30,137 nucleotides of DNA, from the IMG/VR virus record IMGVR_UViG_3300020454_000050, positions 1 through 30,137 of that record. One strand, given 5' to 3'. Under the pieces are notes generated by a model. It searched no databases and had not been told where the DNA came from. It saw nothing but the letters and a program-made list of their open reading frames with translations. Position numbers and translations under genes: made by a program. This stretch comes from a virus. Shown in pieces: positions 3,535 through 26,190 of the stretch (position 1 is its first letter; every line of letters starts with the position of its first letter).

Positions 3535-6500
3535 TAACAAGTTCCCTGATTTGGATAGTATCATTTTGTTGCGGTGCTGAACTGATACTAAAGTCAACTG
3601 CATTACCAGTAACTGTGTAGTCTACACCTGGGATTTGGGCAACACCATTTAAGAATACAAGAACAGAATATGCTGTGTGACCTGCTGATATTGCAAACGA
3701 AGTTGTAGATCCATTACCTGAGTATGTAACACCGTTATTATTATTAGTAATACCAGTTGCTAATCTATACTTGTCAGCAGCACCATAAGTTCCAGTAACA
3801 TCTAAGTTACCATCAAGGAATGTATTACCTAATATCTTCATCCTATTGGATGCGTCAGGCATTGTACCTATACCATAGTGTGTAACGTTACTAAATCTTC
3901 TTGCTTTTATTGGCGTGGTGTCAGTCATACCAAACTGATACCAAACTCCTGCCTGATACATCCAACCCATTGAGTCACCTGCTACCCAATCAATATTGTA
4001 TATAATATCTCCGTCATTAAATGCAAGTGTAGCATCAATATCTGGTTGACCTGATCCATCATCCTCTGCTAAGAATGTCTGTCTAAGAACTGTACCATCA
4101 TCATTTGAGTATGTAAGTCTTAGAGTCTGAATATTCTCCTGAGAAGTAATTCTCTTCTGGAAAGTAACAGGACCTGAGAATACAGATTCTAACTGGTTAG
4201 ATGCTCCACCAATTACAGTCAGTTTATCAGTCAGAACAACCTCAGAGAATGTCTGAATGGTTGTATTTTCTTCACCCAATACGTTAAGTTGAGCAATATC
4301 CTCGTTTGTGATCTGACCTGTAACTGGGTTGATAACTTGGTTTCCAACGAACAGTTCACCATCAGAGTTAACACCAGAGTAGTATGCAACACCCGCTGCT
4401 TCTTTCAACGACTGTGACAGTCTGACTTGTGCAGGGGATAAAACTTCTACCTGAGTTGACGGGAACGCTGTTGAATAATTTCCTGGTCCGAAACCTAGGT
4501 ACTCAAAAGTATGACCTGACGCTCTAAGAATAGAATAACGTCTAAGTTCACATAATATAGGTGCTACTGAGTTATCTGCATTTAGTTTCAGTGCAATCTT
4601 TCTTTCTTCTTCATCACCAAGACGTGATGTAACAACAATACTGTTCAATGTATTTGCTGTAGTATTATATCCTAAGTTATTCTCTTGCTCTAGTAAGAAG
4701 AACTGTGTAGTTTCTTTTGTAATTGATAGTTGCTTATCTTCATTTGGATTTGGTGAAGCACCATCTGTTGTTGTTACCTTACCAAGAATTTCATTATCTG
4801 CTACTGAAATAGCAGGTCCTGGGTCTGCAAGTGGATTATCTCTATCAAATGTAGGATACACATCAACAGTCTGCTGTGAGAAAGCAAAGTTATCAAAGTT
4901 TGATGTTGCAGGTGATACACTAGCATTAAGTATAGTTAGGTAATAGATACCATCAGCGACACCACGTTCAAACTCTTGGAATGTCTCAACTTCAAAGATA
5001 TAATATGTCTTATCATATGCAGGAGAGTTAGTCTCAGATGATCTAGGTTGTATGACGAAACCAGTAATAGGAGTTCTAGGAACTGGGAACGCATCCTTGT
5101 CTAGTACATATCTAAATCTGTAGATTCTATCCTTAAGGTCTCTTGCATCGGGGATTCTTCTAATGAATGTAGTAGGTGTAAATCCTAAGTTATTGTACTG
5201 ACTGTTTGCAATTAGAGTTGTGTAAATATCATTATTTGCTGAGTCAACCTGTATGTACCAGTTAGATTGGTTGGTATCATATTTAATTGGGTTTGCATCA
5301 TCACCTGGGGATGTACTTGTAACTTCTTTTCCAGAAGGATCAATCTTTGCTGTATGTGTTGTAGGAGCAGATGCACCCGCTGCAACTAATAGTACATTAA
5401 TCTTATCAGGTAATGTAGGTGAATCTTTTCTCGCACCTATTGTATAACCCTGTATCTTTGAAGGTGGTTTACCATTTTGATTGGTGTAACCATAGAGATA
5501 TAATTTTGTGGGATCTGCTGCTGCTTTTATCTTTTGAATATCTAATGTAACCCAGTTGATTGATACTTCTGCAATATCTTCTAGTGATTTAGGTGGTATA
5601 ACGTGTGTTATCTGCCCTGCTTTATCTTTTGTAAATGATGCTGACTTAAATCCTTTTGATCTTAGTGATGTATTACCAAAGTTTGAGTTAGAGTTGGTAA
5701 TTGATAAGTCACCGCCACTCTCTGAGAAGAAGTGATCTCCAAATCCAACAGCGAAAACAGAAACGACCTGTATGAATGAGTCATTAGATGCGTGGATGTG
5801 AACGTGTCGCCAACCTTTTCTATACTTTGCTAGACCATCAATATGTGCACCCGAACCCGCTGCCTGTGCTTCATAGTTACCAGTTGAAGCATTATACTTA
5901 ACAAAAGCACGGTCATCTTTCTGTAGAGAGATTCCCGTAAACTGTGCCACAACCATTGATTTGAAACCAGTTGCTTGTGAACCATCTGCGTGCATACCAT
6001 TGATTCCCCAAACTGATCTTAGTGAACAGTTGAATACGTATGGTGATGCAGAGTCAACTGTATCAATCTCAACTTTAACCAGTACGTTAGAACCGATAGC
6101 ATTACCAGTTGGTTCAGAACTCATCTGATATGTAAACTGGTTGCCCTGTGCTGACGTTACAAGGAAGGATCCGTTATAAAGATTCGCATCTGCCTCAGTT
6201 GGACCCGTGACCCCTGAGATATTGACCGCGACCCCGACAGAGAAACCGTGATTAACAGGATTATCTTGAATGTCAACAGTAAACGCAGTCGCTGTCTGTC
6301 CGTTTCTGATGATCTGTGAGACTCTGAATTCATCTGAGATAGGTCCTACAATTCTATTTTCTTCTACTCTTGCCTGTAACTGGTCTTGTGCGATAGTACC
6401 AGAAGTATCAGGAATTGTTGCATATGCTTTAGAAATCTTCTGATAGTAAAGATCTAGATCATTTCCATTTGCATATTCAAAACAAGTTATTTTATGATGT

Positions 6501-15749: not shown

Positions 15750-17128
15750 AAAATGCTGTCCTTTGCTAAATTTAGTTTGGTTGTGATTCCTGGTGCTTCC
15801 CACTTGTGTTTCAAACCAATCACAATATACTTACCAGAATACAATTCGTCAAGTTCCAAACGTTCGGATTGCCCTTCAGTCTGTGACATAGGTATTCTGA
15901 CATCAATAATGTCACCTGCATCTATGGAAATATTTCCAGGGACTGTTATATCTAGTCTAATAGTATTTAACAGTTGCCAACGTGATGCAGAATATGCTGA
16001 ACTTGTAACGGAGTCAAAGGTCATATTCTTTGACGTACCTTCTGGGTTTGTTGAATTTTGAGCATTCTTCATACCTGGAAGTGCTCTAATCTTCATACGA
16101 GTTGGTTTTTCTTCTGAAAAATACTCGTCATTTGCAGTAGGGTAAGGGAAACCACTGTTTAGATTACTAGATAGATTCCATACTTTCTTAGCACCCATAT
16201 TAACTGGAGCGTTTATAGATCCCGCAGGTGCTGATCCTGCTTTATTAGTTTCTGCTGTACCACCTGAGTCAGGTAAAAATCCCTCAGTCAAAGCGGGCAT
16301 CAGTATTCCAATAACAAAATTACTATACAGTCCAGTACGCATCTTTTCTAAGTGATTTGCACGATCTGGATAGTTTATTGACTCTATATTATAAGCGTTT
16401 GTATCATTGTCTGTCAAGTTTGCTTGTACATAAGTATATACTTTGGGGTTTGTAAAAGATGGATTCTTCTTGGAACATAGGTAATCCATTGTTGCAAAAT
16501 TCATACCTTTACGTGTTTGCCAGTACATATATCCAGGTCTTTTTGATACTGAACCTACAATTTTATCTGAAATATATGAAATCACATCATAGGGTCTCCA
16601 AGACGTAGATATAAAACTAAAATTACCAGAAGATTCTTCCCAATGGTTGTGTTGTGTTTCTTTTAGATATGTCTTCTCAACATCTTTAACAGTATCAGAT
16701 CCCTTTTGATCTTCAAATGATTTAAAAACACGATTGGTTTCATTTAATGCTGTGGAAGGTGATGTGGTATATAAAATGTAAGTCTGTGCACGTTCTGATT
16801 TTGTAACGTTACCAACTTTATATACTTTTTGTATTATTTCTAATTCTTCATCACCTGATGAATCAGTTTTCATAGAGAGTCTTATATACTCATTACCGTT
16901 TAATTTTAATGCTAAATCTATGGTGTCATAAATCACTATTTCCATTCTCATTGTAGGAGAATCTACAGAGGATATAATATTAAATGCAGAACATAATCCA
17001 CGGAGATCAAAAGCATTTTCTCCACTAAAACTTAATTGAGACAAATCCTCTTTAGGAGAAGTATCTTTACCTAAAACTAAAAGACCAAACTCATCTATAT
17101 TGTAACCTTTGGGTTGATAATCTGCCAT
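15746..17128 (-). CDS. gp27: gp27-like baseplate hub protein
   Basis: A 460-aa protein, MADYQPKGYNIDEFGLLVLG onward, beta-rich with a mid-section (SFISTSWRPYDVISYISDKI, then RPGYMYWQTRKGMNFATMDY) that reads like the tail-tube-like hub domain of gp27/gpD proteins. T4 gp27 (391 aa) forms the trimeric ring joining the tail tube to the gp5 spike. The C-terminal part (DAGDIIDVRIPMSQTEGQSE, then SGKYIVIGLKHKWEAPGITT) has the strand pattern of the gp27/VgrG hub fold. It begins on a TAATG overlap with the second tape-measure-like gene and ends on an ATGA overlap with cp12, so it is coupled to both. Position (tape measure, then hub, then spike) supports the call. Confidence 0.7.
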   Translation of the reverse strand: MADYQPKGYNIDEFGLLVLGKDTSPKEDLSQLSFSGENAFDLRGLCSAFNIISSVDSPTMRMEIVIYDTIDLALKLNGNEYIRLSMKTDSSGDEELEIIQKVYKVGNVTKSERAQTYILYTTSPSTALNETNRVFKSFEDQKGSDTVKDVEKTYLKETQHNHWEESSGNFSFISTSWRPYDVISYISDKIVGSVSKRPGYMYWQTRKGMNFATMDYLCSKKNPSFTNPKVYTYVQANLTDNDTNAYNIESINYPDRANHLEKMRTGLYSNFVIGILMPALTEGFLPDSGGTAETNKAGSAPAGSINAPVNMGAKKVWNLSSNLNSGFPYPTANDEYFSEEKPTRMKIRALPGMKNAQNSTNPEGTSKNMTFDSVTSSAYSASRWQLLNTIRLDITVPGNISIDAGDIIDVRIPMSQTEGQSERLELDELYSGKYIVIGLKHKWEAPGITTKLNLAKDSIL

Positions 17129-19329
17129 TAGAATAAGTTACTCGGTGATGTGTTTTTCTCAGTCATATATCCAAATCGACTTTGAATATAACTGTTAATC
17201 TCATCTGGTTTAGATGGGAGAACAATTTCTTGATCAGATCCACCTCCCTGCTTTGTTAGGAGAGGTCTTTCTATTACATCTAAAACAACAGTTTCTATAT
17301 TTGAAGTTAATGCAGCACTTTCTAGTTGTTCCTCTGCTTGATTAACACTACCTATTAGTGATGCTAACATTGTTCCTGTGTCACCTTTACTACCAATAAT
17401 TGTTGCTGCTTCTAATAATCTTCTTATAGAAAGACTAGGATCTTTACGGGTATCTGGTGTATCTATAGGAACTATCATCTCCTCTCCGTGACCTACAAAT
17501 CCACCTATTGATCTACTCAATATAGGATTGAATCCTACAGGATAACCTGATTGTGGTCCACGTATTAGTCCACCTTTACTCATACCACCTTTCAAACTTT
17601 CAAGCATTGCTATAGTATCGTTCCAACTTCTAGTACTCTTACTTACTGCACTTTCATTTGCAGGTATCTCATCAAAGAACTTTGATAGGTTTAAAGCAAA
17701 TTGATTTACATCTATCTGATCACCCAAGAAATCTTGGAAACCTGCCATATTCTTCAGTTCTTTGAAGATAGTATCTTGACCTGCGGGATCGAATTTGAAA
17801 GTTTTAGGGTCTTTACCAGAATTTTTTAGTGCTGCTAAAGCATTAGATAATTTTATACCATAACGACCTATCTCTGTACCTTCACCATACAGTGCAACTA
17901 ATTCTTCAACAGTTTTCTGAGTTAAGGAAGTATCCATACCATCAGGTATTGCATCATATCTATTATTAGATGCCTCTTTAGCGATAAAGTCACCTAAGAA
18001 ATTAGGTAAGTTTAATGGATATGTAGAACCACCTTTACCACCAAACGTTTCCTGACTAGCAGACGTTACCCCTGAGAATGTATTAGAAGAAGTTATACTC
18101 TCTTCTGTTTCTTGACTTCCACTTCCTCCTGATACCCAACTTAAAACTTTTGTTAAACCAGTTAATAATGTAATCAAAGGTGCCATAGCATACTTGCCTA
18201 TGAAACTTGCAATCTCTAATATTCTAGGCATATGTGGTTCTATAAAATCAAGAACTTTTCCTACTGTTTCTGCATATTGTACAAAGAATTTCTTTATTGC
18301 ATCACCAACTGGTTTTAGAGTTTTATTGACCCACGCACCAACTCTAGCAAAGAATTTCTTTATCGGTTCTATAATATTTTTTACAATAGGACCAACATAC
18401 TTACCTACGTGTTTACCTAAAAATCCACCAAGAAGATTACCAATAGCACCACCAATTCCAGGTAATAACTGATTTCCTAATGCACCAAGTGCCATAGCAC
18501 CAGTTGTTGCACCAACTCCTCCACCGACTGCTGCTGATTGTCTATCCTCTTCTGGAATATCCTCATCATTCATTATATCATTATACGCTAGGAATCCTTG
18601 TCCTAAACCTAACGCTGCTTGACCAAGAACATTACCACCAAATACTTTTGCTAAGTTAAGAACACCTTTACCAACTAACTGAAGCATACTACTGAATGCT
18701 TTTAACATTGTTGCAGGGTTTTTTAGAAATGCTAGTCCTGCTCCAACTAAACCTACTCCTGCTAATAACTTGGTTGCACCTCCAAGTCTCGTCATAAATG
18801 ACTTTCCATCACCAAATAATTGATTCCAAGATTTACCTATCCAACTAACTATCCCTGATACTACGTTCCATAAACCTTTTAACATTATTCCAAGTCTATT
18901 CATTATCTTCGTCAATTTTTTCTGATTCTCATCTTTAGAAATCCAGTCTAAAGTGCTAAAAATTAACAAACCTTTAAACAATTTACCGAGATTTCCCATA
19001 AAACTCGAACCAGTTTTACCTAATAACGCACCAACAGCAAAACCTAAAGATCCTTTTAAGAATCCTTTTGCCATTTTAGCAGCATTTGATTTATCTCTGG
19101 CAAGTTGATTTTTTCTTGCCATCTCTGCTAGTTGCTGTTGCTGATTTAATCTAGTTGTTAATATTGCAGTACCTATACTGTTTACAGTTGCTCCTAGGGA
19201 ATTAATTGCAGTAATAGTCGTGGAGAATTTAGAACCCGTTACTGTCTTATTGCCAATAGTAACCGTCGCACCTTTATCCTCTGGGGGTGTGATAAATTTA
19301 TAAAATCTTATTGACTTTTGATCTGCCAT
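17128..19329 (-). CDS. tape-measure-like / baseplate hub protein, copy 2
   Basis: A 733-aa protein. Its N-terminus (MADQKSIRFYKFITPPEDKG, then INSLGATVNSIGTAILTTRL) parallels that of the upstream 758-aa protein: a short KF.xP segment, then N.LG..V..IG and a Gln-rich, charged coiled-coil (NQQQQLAEMARKNQLARDKS). Residues about 90-300 hold several Gly/Ala-rich hydrophobic helices (GFLKGSLGFAVGALLGK; GLLIFSTLDWI; GVGLVGAGLAFL), as in tape measures that enter the host membrane. The C-terminal 250 residues are soluble, with a GGLIRGPQSGYPVG-like turn and GHGEEMIVPI. In T4 the tape measure and hub protein is gp29 (590 aa). Function as a length-determining or DNA-channel protein is inferred from position and composition. 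Confidence 0.65.
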   Translation of the reverse strand: MADQKSIRFYKFITPPEDKGATVTIGNKTVTGSKFSTTITAINSLGATVNSIGTAILTTRLNQQQQLAEMARKNQLARDKSNAAKMAKGFLKGSLGFAVGALLGKTGSSFMGNLGKLFKGLLIFSTLDWISKDENQKKLTKIMNRLGIMLKGLWNVVSGIVSWIGKSWNQLFGDGKSFMTRLGGATKLLAGVGLVGAGLAFLKNPATMLKAFSSMLQLVGKGVLNLAKVFGGNVLGQAALGLGQGFLAYNDIMNDEDIPEEDRQSAAVGGGVGATTGAMALGALGNQLLPGIGGAIGNLLGGFLGKHVGKYVGPIVKNIIEPIKKFFARVGAWVNKTLKPVGDAIKKFFVQYAETVGKVLDFIEPHMPRILEIASFIGKYAMAPLITLLTGLTKVLSWVSGGSGSQETEESITSSNTFSGVTSASQETFGGKGGSTYPLNLPNFLGDFIAKEASNNRYDAIPDGMDTSLTQKTVEELVALYGEGTEIGRYGIKLSNALAALKNSGKDPKTFKFDPAGQDTIFKELKNMAGFQDFLGDQIDVNQFALNLSKFFDEIPANESAVSKSTRSWNDTIAMLESLKGGMSKGGLIRGPQSGYPVGFNPILSRSIGGFVGHGEEMIVPIDTPDTRKDPSLSIRRLLEAATIIGSKGDTGTMLASLIGSVNQAEEQLESAALTSNIETVVLDVIERPLLTKQGGGSDQEIVLPSKPDEINSYIQSRFGYMTEKNTSPSNLF

Positions 19330-21605
19330 TAGTAAACAGTTGCCTCATTCTCTTGATATTGAACACCTAGTCCATCATCTGTAGTAACAGAAGGTTGAAC
19401 AATAGGTTGAACAACAACTTTGTTGTCTCCTACCTTATATACCTTTTCCTGTTTTAGTTCTCCACCATTGTTAACAACAGTGCTAGTTATCTCTGATGGA
19501 TTAACACTATTAGTTAGGATCTTTTCTTCTTCTGGTGCAGGAAATATCTCAGGATATAAATCTGCAATATCCATCCTACCTTTGTTATATCCACCTTCAA
19601 CCTTATGGTTTGTAAATGCTTGTAATAAAAGGAATGTAGATTTTGATGTTAATTTTTTATTACCTTTACCACCCTTTTTATATTTTCTAGCATCCATCAA
19701 TTCACCTATTTTATCACCAGGTTTTACTCTTGTCTTATGATTAATCGTAGGTATTATGTTTCTGTATCCAATATCTTCATTTCCCGCATCACCTTCAATA
19801 ATCATTCCTCCTCTTCTGTAATCACCTGACGATTTACCTTTCTGGTATCCCCATTGTCGAACTTTTCCTGCTTTTACAGCAAAAACATCTATTGGAAATT
19901 TTGTTGGATCAGTCGGTCTTACTACTCTACCACCTTTCAATCCTAATTTATCTTTTACAGTTCCTACTTCAAAATCTAAGAATCCACTTTTTAATGGAAA
20001 CACAGCAGGAAGTAACGCAGTCACCTCTTCATTTGCTTGTGCTGTTTGTTCTGCTAATAATACTGCTTGCTCTTTTTTTAATTTCTCTTTATATTCTTTT
20101 TCTTTTGCAATACGTTCACCAACAGTATATCTCCAATTCCATCTTTTGAAGTCTGAACCTTCTTTTTTCTGTAGTTTTTCTAAGGTACTCAACTTTTTAG
20201 TTGAGTCAACTACGTCTATTGTCTTGTTTTCTGTTTTTGCATCTATTTTTTGTTGATCATTAGCAAAAGGATTTATAGTTACAACATTATTAATCAACTT
20301 TTTACCTGAGTTGACCAATCTCATTAATTCATATAATGCTTCTTCTACCCAAACAGAATTTAATATATTACCAATTTTTTCTATTCCTGATTCTACAAGG
20401 GGTTTAAATATTTCTTTCATCTTGTCGAAAAATGGTGCCAATCCAGTACTCCACAAGTCAACAAATGCGTCTGATATTGGTTTGTAAAATGCCTTGAAGA
20501 TGTCAAAGTACATACCAAATGCTCTCTTCATAGGTTTGAACATTGGTGTGAAGGCATCACCTAAGAATGCACCTATCTTGTCTCCTAAGAACGATCCTAT
20601 TAACTGACCAACAATCGGACCGAATGGACCAAGCACAGGTGTAAGTAATGCACCCATAGCAATACCACCAATAGCAGCACCTGCACCACCACCGATAGCA
20701 TTTTGTAAAGACTTACCTGATGATAATCTATTTGCAAATGAGAATATACCTGCTAATCCTGCCATTCCTCCACCTTTGAGGAATCTACCTGCACCTTTAC
20801 CAAACCCTTTAAGGAATTTACTTCCTTTCTGTAAAAATCTACCACCCTTGACTTTGGCAAGACGTTTTAAACGAAGCATTCTTTTAGCACGCAATGCTTG
20901 TTTTAATTTTCTCTGTTGTATTATCCTTCTACCTTCTGCAAATCTCTTACCTGATCCTTGTTTACCAAATCTAAGAAAATCTACCATTTTCTTCAATTTT
21001 TTAAAATCACCTATCAATTTCCACGGTCTCAATATTCTACCTGCTATCCATAATCCACCTATTCCACCTATAACTTTTAATATTCCCATTATAGGACTAT
21101 TTTCAGCAAGTCCATCAAATATTAGACCTATGCTACCAGATGTTACTTTATAAAGTGATTTAAACCAACCACCAATGACTGCCAAACCTATTTTTAAATC
21201 ATTCCTAGTCCCAGGCATTTCTAAGAAAGATAATATCAACCACCCTGCTGCTGCCTTTGCTAACCATTTTAGGGGTTTTAAAAGTGATTCTAACCACGCC
21301 CATTTTTTACCACTCTTTTTAACTTCTTGTTTAGCACCTTTCTCTACCTCTTGCCCATTTATATTTTTGTTGTACTCCTCTTCCTTTTTTCTATCTGCTT
21401 CTAGTTGTCTCTGCCTCTCTGCCTCTGCACTAAGTAATGTACTCTGTTGTTTTGTTAGATCATTAATTAACATCTGACCAATATCTGCCACAGCAAATCC
21501 CAACCTATTGACACTAAAGGTCAAGGTCTTAACTGGATCTCCCGCAGGACCACTAGGTGTTGGTGCAAGAAATTTCTTTATTTTTAATGGTGCTTTCGTT
21601 GCCAC
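19329..21605 (-). CDS. tape-measure-like / baseplate hub protein, copy 1, with degenerate M23-like domain
   Basis: A 758-aa protein starting with GTG at 21605, right after the 57-aa ORF stop. Order: KIKKFLAPTPSG and an N.LGFAVADIG segment (33-43), a charged coiled-coil (about 50-100), hydrophobic helices (112-190), a very basic stretch (200-280), and a Gly/Ala-rich hydrophobic region (280-350) matching copy 2. After a second coiled-coil (470-525), residues about 535-690 read like a peptidase M23/LytM fold: FPIDVFAVKAGKVRQWGY, then VKPGDKIGEL and STFLLLQAF. The family's catalytic HxH (usually HLHFE) is replaced by FLLLQ. It follows the gp26-like chaperone pair, the usual place of a tape measure. 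T4 gp29 is the nearest functional counterpart; sequence kinship is not shown. Confidence 0.65.
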   Translation of the reverse strand: MATKAPLKIKKFLAPTPSGPAGDPVKTLTFSVNRLGFAVADIGQMLINDLTKQQSTLLSAEAERQRQLEADRKKEEEYNKNINGQEVEKGAKQEVKKSGKKWAWLESLLKPLKWLAKAAAGWLILSFLEMPGTRNDLKIGLAVIGGWFKSLYKVTSGSIGLIFDGLAENSPIMGILKVIGGIGGLWIAGRILRPWKLIGDFKKLKKMVDFLRFGKQGSGKRFAEGRRIIQQRKLKQALRAKRMLRLKRLAKVKGGRFLQKGSKFLKGFGKGAGRFLKGGGMAGLAGIFSFANRLSSGKSLQNAIGGGAGAAIGGIAMGALLTPVLGPFGPIVGQLIGSFLGDKIGAFLGDAFTPMFKPMKRAFGMYFDIFKAFYKPISDAFVDLWSTGLAPFFDKMKEIFKPLVESGIEKIGNILNSVWVEEALYELMRLVNSGKKLINNVVTINPFANDQQKIDAKTENKTIDVVDSTKKLSTLEKLQKKEGSDFKRWNWRYTVGERIAKEKEYKEKLKKEQAVLLAEQTAQANEEVTALLPAVFPLKSGFLDFEVGTVKDKLGLKGGRVVRPTDPTKFPIDVFAVKAGKVRQWGYQKGKSSGDYRRGGMIIEGDAGNEDIGYRNIIPTINHKTRVKPGDKIGELMDARKYKKGGKGNKKLTSKSTFLLLQAFTNHKVEGGYNKGRMDIADLYPEIFPAPEEEKILTNSVNPSEITSTVVNNGGELKQEKVYKVGDNKVVVQPIVQPSVTTDDGLGVQYQENEATVY

Positions 21606-21779
21606 TTATAGTGTTTGATGTTGTGCGTTCGCTGCTTTTTGACGTGCTTCCTCTTCACGAAGATGTCGTATGAGCATATTTACATAGACATCCCTCTCCC
21701 AAGGCATCATTTGTTCTAATTCTGTAAGACTATATTTGTGGTATTGCATCATTGCAAAGTTAACCTCAAATATATTCAT
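21606..21779 (-). CDS. 57-aa chaperone extension (gp51 position), probably translated by -1 frameshift
   Basis: Found by direct translation: MNIFEVNFAMMQYHKYSLTE, then LEQMMPWERDVYVNMLIRHL and a charged tail (REEEARQKAANAQHQTL). The pattern YHKYSLTELEQMMPWERDVY.NML is the short helical motif seen in C-terminal extensions of tail-assembly chaperones. T4 gp51 (249 aa) occupies a comparable genomic place, but this protein is far shorter, so I use the name only for position. The ATG at 21779 has no clear ribosome binding site. The same frame is open upstream through the gp26 stop back to the slippery site at 21806-21812, which suggests it is made mainly as a gp26 fusion of about 301 aa. It ends just before the tape-measure GTG. 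Confidence 0.75.
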   Translation of the reverse strand: MNIFEVNFAMMQYHKYSLTELEQMMPWERDVYVNMLIRHLREEEARQKAANAQHQTL

Positions 21780-21799
21780 CAATGTATCGTGTGAGAGGG

Positions 21800-22510
21800 C
21801 TATGCGAAAAAACTTGCCATCCCCTCTAGAACCATCTCACTTTTCTTCTCAGTCTTAGGATTAAAAACTTCAATAGTGTGAGATACTTTAGGCATTGTCT
21901 CAAAGAATTTCTGAACCTCTTGGAACTGTAGGTTATTCATACCTTCAAAGAAAGTTAGAAGTTCTCCTTTCTTGTATGCTTTTGCGTTTTCTACTTCATC
22001 ACCGTTGGCAATTTTGTCAACACAATCTGCTGCAAGTTGGAAAATGTCATCAAGTTTAGGATCTTCTGATAGATTATTCTTCACAAATGTATCAATAGAT
22101 GGATACTTCATTACAAGTGTGACATCATCAGTAATCTTTACTTTATTTGAATGATCAGGAGGAACAATAACTTCCACCTCCTCAAGATTAACTTCTACAT
22201 CAACTTGAGTTTCATTATCATCAGGAGCAACTACTTTAAACTCACTGACTTCACCTACTGACTTAGCACGAATACGAAGAAACAAATATTCAATATCAAA
22301 TGTAGCAAGTGTATCTATTTTTTTAACACTCGTACAATTTTTAATAATCTCTTTTACTGCCTTTATCATTTCCTTTTGATCTTGAGATTCCATTGCCATA
22401 TAAAGCAATTTCTCTTCACGAACTAGGAAAGGACGGTATGTTACTTTCTGACCGAAAGGTAGTGTGCACTCATACTCAGGGACCACGAGGGTCGGCAATG
22501 GCATTGGCAT
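21800..22510 (-). CDS. gp26: gp26-like baseplate hub assembly protein / tail assembly chaperone
   Basis: A 236-aa soluble protein, MPMPLPTLVVPEYECTLPFG onward. The sequence VTYRPFLVREEKLLYMAMES (residues about 24-43) and IEYLFLRIRAKSVGEVSEFK (about 73-92) are features I recognise from the T4 gp26 baseplate protein family (T4 gp26 is 208 aa). The middle is acidic and beta-rich (VDVEVNLEEVEVIVP) and the C-terminal half helical. It ends GMASFFA with a U UUU UUC heptamer over the two Phe codons. Placed directly before the tape measures, it matches the chaperone position of lambda G. It starts 28 nt after a GCTAAATA element and 38 nt after the tail-tube-like gene. Role: building the hub around the tape measure, inferred. 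Confidence 0.8.
   Translation of the reverse strand: MPMPLPTLVVPEYECTLPFGQKVTYRPFLVREEKLLYMAMESQDQKEMIKAVKEIIKNCTSVKKIDTLATFDIEYLFLRIRAKSVGEVSEFKVVAPDDNETQVDVEVNLEEVEVIVPPDHSNKVKITDDVTLVMKYPSIDTFVKNNLSEDPKLDDIFQLAADCVDKIANGDEVENAKAYKKGELLTFFEGMNNLQFQEVQKFFETMPKVSHTIEVFNPKTEKKSEMVLEGMASFFA
21806..21812 (-). promoter_or_regulatory. predicted programmed -1 frameshift site (U UUU UUC)
   Basis: On the minus strand the gp26 codons read AGT TTT TTC GCA TAG. T TTT TTC fits the X XXY YYZ slippery rule in the zero frame. A -1 shift reads on as CGC ATA GCC CTC TCA CAC GAT ACA TTG and enters the ATG of the 57-aa ORF in frame, with no stop until 21606. The site is two codons before the gp26 stop. I could not test for a stimulatory structure. 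Confidence 0.7.
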
Positions 22511-24151: not shown

Positions 24152-25195
24152 ATGCCATTAGTATATCCTAGATCAATTCCTGGTAGTTCTCTCAACGTAT
24201 CTGCACAAGATAGTTTTGAGACCAGTTTTGTTGACTACTTACAAATAAAAATTTATAATTCAAAGTCAGGTAATCCATACTCTTACATTGGTAATAGCGG
24301 TAATTACGGAACAGGACACGTCCTTGGTGGTGGTTCAGAGACTGAAGGTTCTCTGTCTGAAACTATTTATCTATATTTACCACAACAATTAAAGGAACAA
24401 TACTCTACACAATATCAACGAACAACTCTAGGTGCAGGTGGTGTCGGTGCATTAGATGCAGTTGCAACAGCAGCAGCAGGAGGAGAGACAGATTTAGTAG
24501 AGTCACTTAAAACAACAGCAGGTGCAGCAAAACCTCAGTTTGTTATGGATAAAATTGCTGCTGCTGTAGGTACAATAAACACTGCATTAGGAGCAAGTGG
24601 TACTAACTTAGATGCAAATAGTATTGGTGCTCTAGTAAAAAAGAAAGTATTTAATCCATATCAAGAGACAACATTTCGTGGTACAAACTATCGTACACAT
24701 TCATTTTCTTTTGAGTGTCAACCACGTAGTTCAAGAGAATCTAATGAGTTATATAATATACTGAATAAACTTCGTAGAGCAATGTTACCTTCAATGCAAG
24801 ATGGGGAAACAGGAGACTTCACAACACAAGGAGATCAAGCAGGAACAAGTGAAGGAGATAATATAGTTAATGATATAGTAAGTGGATCAGCACCTGGTCG
24901 TTGGTTGCAGATACCTGATTACTTTAGACTTGACATCATTCGTGTAGAAGGCACACCAAATGCTGACGGTGAGATAGAACTAACTGGTACTTCTCCTAGA
25001 GGTTTGAAAAGAATTATGCAATTCCCTACTAAATTAGTATTAAAGGATTTGAATATCAACTTATCACCCAATGGTCCATACAACTCATTGAAAGATGCGT
25101 TTGATAGTTCTGTTGATTATGGTCCTGCTTCATTCACAATGACTCTCACATTTGATGAGACTGCATTCCTTACTAGAGAATCACTTACACAGTAA
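24152..25195 (+). CDS. gp48: gp48-like baseplate tail-tube cap protein
   Basis: A 347-aa protein close in length to T4 gp48 (364 aa). The N-terminus MPLVYPRSIPGSSLNVSAQD precedes an Ala/Gly/Thr-rich insert (about 90-165). The conserved core FRGTNYRTHSFSFECQPRSS (about 176-195) and ELYNILNKLRRAML follow. GRWLQIPDYFRLDIIRVEG and ILKD-type strands (LVLKDLNINLSPNGPYNS) then lead to the closing strand pair (ASFTMTLTFDETAFLTRESL). This order of tail-tube-fold elements is typical of gp48, which caps the hub and starts tube polymerisation. It shares one base with the gp53 start (stop and ATG overlap at 25195). No Shine-Dalgarno sequence is seen before the ATG. Confidence 0.85.
   Translation: MPLVYPRSIPGSSLNVSAQDSFETSFVDYLQIKIYNSKSGNPYSYIGNSGNYGTGHVLGGGSETEGSLSETIYLYLPQQLKEQYSTQYQRTTLGAGGVGALDAVATAAAGGETDLVESLKTTAGAAKPQFVMDKIAAAVGTINTALGASGTNLDANSIGALVKKKVFNPYQETTFRGTNYRTHSFSFECQPRSSRESNELYNILNKLRRAMLPSMQDGETGDFTTQGDQAGTSEGDNIVNDIVSGSAPGRWLQIPDYFRLDIIRVEGTPNADGEIELTGTSPRGLKRIMQFPTKLVLKDLNINLSPNGPYNSLKDAFDSSVDYGPASFTMTLTFDETAFLTRESLTQ
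24364..24371 (-). promoter_or_regulatory. possible late promoter for the gp4 operon (GATAAATA)
   Basis: GATAAATA on the minus strand within gp48, 219 nt before the gp4 ATG. It is farther than usual and the match is imperfect, but it is the nearest candidate for the hub operon. Confidence 0.3.
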
Positions 25196-26190
25196 TGGCA
25201 TACTTTAAATACCTACCCAAAGTTTACGTTAGAAATAAAACTAGAGTTGATGGTGGACAACCATACGAACTCGCAGTAAATATTTTTAGACGTATCAAAA
25301 TTAGAGATGATCTACAAGGTTCATTGCTTGGATTTATTCAGTATGAAATACAAGATGGAACAAGACCAGATCAAGTTGCATACGAGGTATATAAAGATGC
25401 AGGTCTTGACTGGGTAATTCTTCTAGTAAATAATATTATAAATGTTAATGATGATTGGCCAATGAATCGTGAGGATTTATATGGTTATGTTCAAGACAAA
25501 TATGGTTCTATAGAAGGAGTAAAACACTATGAAACGACCGAGTATAAGAGTCCTAGTCTTGATCTTGTCTTACTTCCTAGTGGGATTACTGTTTCGGAGT
25601 CTTACCAATACACGAAACCCGATGGCACCATCCTTACTAAATCCCAATCTAGAACTCCTGTATCCTACTACGACTACGAAACCGCAGTAAATAATACTAA
25701 GAGAAATATATATCTTTTACGTCCACAATATTTGACTGACTTTATTGCAGAATTTAAGAGATTAGCAAGGTATCTTCCTAATGCTGAGGTTGATGAGACT
25801 GGTAACAAGAAAACTAAAGGGTCTCTCGCTGAAGAATTTATTGGTCTACCTAGATACAATCGCCCAAGACAAAGCACTGCATCGACAGGTTCTGCATCTG
25901 GTGGTGGTTCATCTACAGCATTGATAGCATCAGGTGGTTCATCGGCAGCATCAACTACATCAACAGCAACCACATCAACAGGTGTAACGTTAAGTACAAC
26001 AGATTCAAATGCCTCTTCCGCAACGACTTATAATAATACATCATCTACTGATAGTTCTACCTCGTCAAGTAGTTCATCGTCTTCGTCCTCGTCCTCTTCG
26101 AGCAGCAGTAGTTCTTCTAGTAGTAGTTCTAGTAGTAGCGGGTCTAGTGGATCAAGTGGGTCAAGTGGTGGATACGGAGGAGGGTACTAA
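25195..26190 (+). CDS. gp53: gp53-like baseplate wedge protein with poly-serine tail
   Basis: A 331-aa protein. Residues 1-120 (MAYFKYLPKVYVRNKTRVDG, then ANIFRRIKIRDDL-like strands, DQVAYEVYKDAGLDWVILLV and DDWPMNREDL) match the gp53 wedge domain, which holds baseplate wedges together near the hub and is related to LysM. T4 gp53 is 196 aa; this one continues to about residue 225 with ordered sequence. It then ends in a Ser/Thr/Gly/Ala tail of about 105 residues with 26 consecutive serines (290-315) and GSSGSSGSSGGYGGGY. The stop codon overlaps that of the convergent 81-aa gene. The tail is absent from T4 gp53 and is probably disordered. Confidence 0.9.
   Translation: MAYFKYLPKVYVRNKTRVDGGQPYELAVNIFRRIKIRDDLQGSLLGFIQYEIQDGTRPDQVAYEVYKDAGLDWVILLVNNIINVNDDWPMNREDLYGYVQDKYGSIEGVKHYETTEYKSPSLDLVLLPSGITVSESYQYTKPDGTILTKSQSRTPVSYYDYETAVNNTKRNIYLLRPQYLTDFIAEFKRLARYLPNAEVDETGNKKTKGSLAEEFIGLPRYNRPRQSTASTGSASGGGSSTALIASGGSSAASTTSTATTSTGVTLSTTDSNASSATTYNNTSSTDSSTSSSSSSSSSSSSSSSSSSSSSSSSSSGSSGSSGSSGGYGGGY
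26062..26139 (+). repeat. poly-serine coding tract (26 codons)
   Basis: Twenty-six serine codons in a row within gp53, using all six serine codons (TCG, TCA, TCT, TCC, AGT, AGC) without a fixed DNA period. It is a protein-level repeat, not a simple DNA microsatellite. Confidence 0.9.

Follow-up and report, generated by a model that had tools for sequence, protein, structure and literature searches.

A conserved T TTT TTN heptamer and -1 frame coding behind a gp26-like gene point to a G/GT-type tail assembly chaperone pair in T4-like phages

Does the gp26-like gene of a cyanophage-like ocean virus yield a single protein, or do some ribosomes run past its stop codon into the short gp51-like reading frame behind it? 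The locus lies in a 30,137-base IMG/VR virus fragment, referred to here, over its whole length, as the window. In a 2016 review the G/GT frameshift was near-universal among long-tailed phages, T4 being the exception (PMC5009743). T4 gp26 and gp51 are listed as hub assembly chaperones, gp51 being needed for assembly and absent from the particle (PMC3004832). The gp51 proteins of cyanophage and vibriophage were found to be without the first ~200 residues, those of cyanophages having only about 20% of the length of T4-type gp51 (Sullivan et al., 2010; PMC3037559).

The gp26-like protein of the window matches PF12322 (T4_baseplate, E=1e-65) and phrog_150 (baseplate hub, E=2e-72), and its C-terminus reads MASFFA (Table 1). 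On the minus strand the gene ends in GAG GGG ATG GCA AGT TTT TTC GCA TAG, which places T TTT TTC in the zero frame two codons ahead of the stop, to the base where an earlier note on this DNA had seen it. From 21812 the -1 frame (FFRIALSHDTLMNIFEV...) is open for 68 residues up to its first stop (TAA, 21608-21606), and it enters in phase a gp51-like ORF of 57 aa counted from ATG or 58 aa from TTG, the latter matching phrog_634 (E=1.5e-23). The predicted fusion has 233 + 68 = 301 aa, and its junction peptide would contain ...EGMASFFRIALSHD...; that note had described the open frame, the entry in phase and a product of about 301 aa correctly in every detail.

Table 1. Features of the window, with comparable sites in three other phages
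Feature	Coordinates	Strand	Basis
gp26-like gene, short form (TAC-N), 236 aa	21800..22510	minus	PF12322, phrog_150
Shine-Dalgarno-like GAGGGG, putative stimulator, 8 nt upstream of heptamer	21821..21826	minus	anti-SD pairing
Proposed slippery heptamer T TTT TTC, zero frame AGT TTT TTC GCA TAG	21806..21812	minus	sequence, relatives
TAG stop of short form, bypassed by proposed -1 shift	21800..21802	minus	sequence
-1 frame extension (TAC-C; cyanophage annotation gp51), 68 codons + TAA	21606..21812	minus	phrog_634, T4 gp51 alignment
Tape-measure-like gene, 758 aa, GTG start	19329..21605	minus	weak tape-measure profile matches, position
Second tape-measure/tail-lysin-like gene, 733 aa	17128..19329	minus	phrog_1535 tape measure, E=1e-9
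NTT TTC sites, Ackermannviridae S115 and Kevin, and Vibrio D533	L176 4786-4810, L181 4684-4710, L180 4555-4580		

We compared 171 complete relatives, about 160 of them IMG/VR loci, in addition to reference phages and the window itself; for a non-redundant set, eight further reference loci were added and the whole was thinned at 80% protein identity to 85 loci. Alignment of related genomes had been suggested in the earlier note as a check on the conservation of heptamer and phase, and both proved to be conserved. A zero-frame T TTT TTN is found close to the gene end in 169 of the 171 loci (TTTTTTC in 153, TTTTTTT in 15 and TTTTTTA in one) and in 82 of the 85 left after thinning, and the extension lies in the -1 phase in all frameshift-type loci examined. 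The exceptions among the 171 are T4, with two genes, and Stenotrophomonas phage IME-SM1, with a run of five T. Outside the group of T4 itself, conservation of T TTT TTN extends to almost all T4-like phages. Its presence at the end of the gp26-like gene is more than chance, the zero-frame TTTTTTC of the window being the sole instance among 8,662 codon positions in 25 genes, and other Phe-Phe pairs of the same gp26 genes taking the form T TTT TTY in only 5 of 78 cases. The codon preceding the Phe pair specifies S, D, N, A or R, yet it ends in T in 82 of 82 loci (53 expected), and TTT, which makes up 68% of all Phe codons, fills the first Phe position in every one of the 82; these codon counts take loci as independent and are therefore descriptive. 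Retention of the T through these changes of amino acid is direct evidence that the RNA itself is under selection. A homologous -1 extension is present in Ackermannviridae (S115, Kevin) and in Vibrio phage D533, where NTT TTC replaces the heptamer. In IME-SM1 (around 3250 of its locus) the gp26 frame runs on through the five-T slip site, possibly because of a homopolymer indel in the record, since close relatives have six T.

Two kinds of element that could promote slippage flank the heptamer. The upstream Shine-Dalgarno-like stretch pairs more strongly with the 16S anti-SD than synonymous-codon randoms do (-5.88 versus -4.67 kcal/mol, p=2.6e-6, 82 relatives), and among nine control windows within the gene a single one exceeded its randoms (p=0.02). 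The invariant GG of this stretch corresponds to a conserved Gly codon, indicating that protein constraint contributes. From this pairing, the internal GAGGGG probably stimulates slippage. On the other side, RNA stability in the 60 nt after the slip site exceeds that of synonymous randoms (mean z -1.40, 81 loci), as against control values of -0.13 to -0.44 in the gp26 body and -0.43 further downstream. In P-SSM2 an 11-pair stem folds 5 nt after the heptamer and the folds of individual relatives are often strong; RNAalifold gave no common consensus fold downstream of the slip site. A hairpin just 3' of the slip site probably helps slippage in many of the relatives. Folding of this downstream RNA, likewise suggested in the earlier note, had a divided outcome, with stability evident across the family but not significant in the window itself (z -0.28 and -0.87). 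An AGAGGG upstream and a CCCTCT downstream (window 21787-21829, minus strand) could pair around the slip site, their folding not being significant. The arrangement recalls E. coli dnaX: the heptamer is homopolymeric, an internal SD precedes it by about 10 nt and, in many relatives, a hairpin follows after a few nucleotides; the two differ in that the run is of A in dnaX and of U here, and in that the structure varies between lineages and is not evident in the window. A more ambitious reading, which we advance tentatively and would not yet favor, is that a dnaX-like cassette of internal SD, invariant U6 heptamer and lineage-specific hairpin may be under RNA-level selection across marine phages, with Ackermannviridae slipping non-canonically at NUU UUC.

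A homopolymeric T run could also act at the level of the polymerase, which might add or drop a U so that an altered mRNA would be translated normally into the long form, and 14 of the 82 non-redundant loci do carry runs of seven or eight T. Exactly six T are present in the other 68, however, a run that is short for polymerase slippage, and the single codon phase (T TTT TTN) maintained throughout is one that a polymerase would not need. The enriched elements described above, SD-like pairing and downstream RNA structure, both act on ribosomes. We therefore regard transcriptional slippage as improbable.

Coding in the -1 frame bears on whether the extension is instead a separate gene (gp51), expressed from its own start or by reinitiation, with the phase and the T run incidental. 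It is annotated in this way in many cyanophages, and TTG and ATG codons are present just past the stop in the window. Past the gp26 stop, however, the -1 frame stays open for about 53-69 codons in nearly all loci, as against at most 27 in the +1 frame, and base entropy just after the stop is 1.20, 0.79 and 1.67 at -1 codon positions 1, 2 and 3 respectively (81 loci). This codon periodicity sets in ahead of any start codon, coding constraint in the -1 frame beginning at the slip site itself. The first possible start is either missing or falls at extension codon 16 or later in 49 of 82 loci, and ATG and GTG are wholly absent from the extension in two of the 82. The periodicity from the slip site onwards, together with late or absent starts, indicates that the extension is generally no free-standing gene. 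With the invariant phase and the covalent fusion of the corresponding region in T4 gp51 also against it, a separate gene is, in our estimation, slightly less probable again than polymerase slippage. A single gene split by sequencing error or pseudogene decay, as error-prone homopolymers and the five-T run of IME-SM1 might suggest, is refuted by conservation of the arrangement across deep lineages (169 of 171 assemblies and isolates) and by coding constraint in both frames, and its probability is negligible.

How, then, does T4 fit? Both T4 gp26 (208 aa) and T4 gp51 (249 aa) match PF12322 (E=9e-64 and 4e-52), and residues 147-246 of gp51 hit phrog_634 (E=1e-23), to which the cyanophage "gp51" extension belongs, with the gp51 tail (21 residues) aligning in register with FFRIALSHDTLMNIFEVNFAM.... 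By these matches T4 gp26 and gp51 are paralogues, gp51 consisting of a gp26 domain with the extension already fused to it. Since both belong to PF12322 and the tail of gp51 is the extension, gene 26 corresponds to the short form and gene 51 to the fused long form. The two are separate genes on opposite strands, unlike the arrangement in the window, and frameshifting neither takes place here nor is needed in T4. The earlier note had put the extension at the T4 gp51 position, which is misleading in that T4 gp51 is no short extension protein and instead is a full gp26 paralogue with a fused extension. The two-gene layout is also found in Aeromonas phage 31, Proteus phiP4-3 and a Krischvirus. In RB43 (4001-5294 of its locus) a gp51-type long gene and a gp26-type short gene share one strand as a tandem pair, whereas those of T4 are divergent.

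The frameshift layout is present in Kyanoviridae, Pelagibacter phages, Sinorhizobium and Rhizobium phages, pf16, Menderavirus, a Nitratidesulfovibrio phage and a Pseudoalteromonas phage, and, within Straboviridae but outside T4's group, in AS-szw, LPCS28 and Vibrio CZ01. From gene layout, most T4-like lineages are predicted to obtain short and long forms by frameshift, and T4's group has two genes for them. In a phylogenetic tree the two-gene paralogues and the frameshift genes fall into separate groups (support 98/95), the frameshift clade having support of 98/96 on the core alone; with the root unfixed and some long branches, this topology is consistent with one duplication in the lineage of T4.

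In the phages with the frameshift layout, one gene very probably gives rise to a short tail assembly chaperone and, by -1 ribosomal slippage, to a minor long one, the role taken by separate genes 26 and 51 in T4's group. The conserved heptamer, the invariant phase, -1 frame periodicity, the tape-measure-like neighbour and the natural fusion in T4 gp51 together support a G/GT-type frameshift pair, as the earlier note had proposed. We infer from the sequence that ribosomes slip at this site with an efficiency that would leave most of them in the gp26 frame, to stop at TAG and release the 236-aa short form. A minority would move back by one base at T TTT TTC, with the tRNA-Phe pair going from UUU/UUC to UUU/UUU; having passed TAG, these ribosomes would extend the chain beyond the two Phe by 66 new residues to the 301-aa long form. 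The lambda slip site is G GGA AAG; the locus differs in having U UUU UUC and an extension of about 66 aa, and no sequence homology to lambda G/GT was detectable. The likeness lies in -1 slippage, here a proposed one, near the 3' end of the gene, in a short and a long chaperone from one locus, and in a position directly upstream of the tape measure gene, here a tape-measure-like one (PMC5009743). In lambda the binding partner of the short form is the tape measure, and that of the T domain is the tube protein (PMC5009743); by analogy, the short form here may coat the tape measure protein of the next gene, the C-terminal domain of the long form may recruit the tail tube, and neither would remain in the virion. 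With a confident AlphaFold2 model of the gp26-like protein (pLDDT 93.9), Foldseek ranked 2ob9, the tail assembly chaperone of HK97, tenth, which is not significant (prob 0.20, E=1.9). Fold searches of the PDB with this model and with a T4-type gp51 model returned nothing significant, neither the gp26 profile nor T4 gp51 had a sequence match in the PDB, and NCBIfam gave none above cut-off.

According to its abstract, a 2022 study by Vladimirov and colleagues reportedly found the frameshift to be conserved in several T4-like groups, with T4 using genes 26 and 51. Two later articles that cite that study state that it identified the tail assembly chaperones of T4-like phages (Vladimirov, Gautam and Davidson, 2022, Virology 566:9-15; PMC10885494, PMC12846349), that some T4-like phages, instead of frameshifting, have two genes, one short and the other longer and fused (PMC10885494), and that TAC-N genes of T4-like phages are known to contain poly-T -1 signals (PMC12846349). 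As those articles describe them, the published TAC-N/TAC-NC pairs share with the locus the protein family, the gene pair and the poly-T slip signals, the locus differing in that it comes from an uncultivated marine contig. The core of this scheme for T4-like phages has been in print since 2022, so that the recasting of gp26/gp51 as a G/GT-type pair in the earlier note was right but not new. What is added here is the 171-locus survey, the codon-level constraint on the heptamer, the tests of the SD-like element and RNA structure, and the -1 extension without the heptamer in Ackermannviridae and Vibrio D533. The shortness of cyanophage gp51 is accounted for, because gp26 would supply the missing ~200 residues through the frameshift, as is the apparent exception of T4, because its group uses a second, fused gene. 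Public records label the extension "hub assembly catalyst", "hypothetical protein" or "endolysin", or not at all, an inconsistency suggesting that hundreds of cyanophage records could be corrected.

Downstream of the chaperone locus, two successive tape-measure/tail-lysin-like genes occupy 17128-21605 of the minus strand. The first of these begins with its GTG at 21605, the base next to the extension stop, and its 758-aa product has weak tape-measure profile matches (for example phrog_167, E=3e-5), with no tape-measure match in Pfam. The 758-aa and 733-aa proteins are related over their first ~380 residues (BLASTP E=4e-6), suggesting a tandem duplication. Elsewhere in the window, a 331-aa protein encoded at 25195-26190 (plus strand) carries a long poly-Ser/Gly tract at its end.
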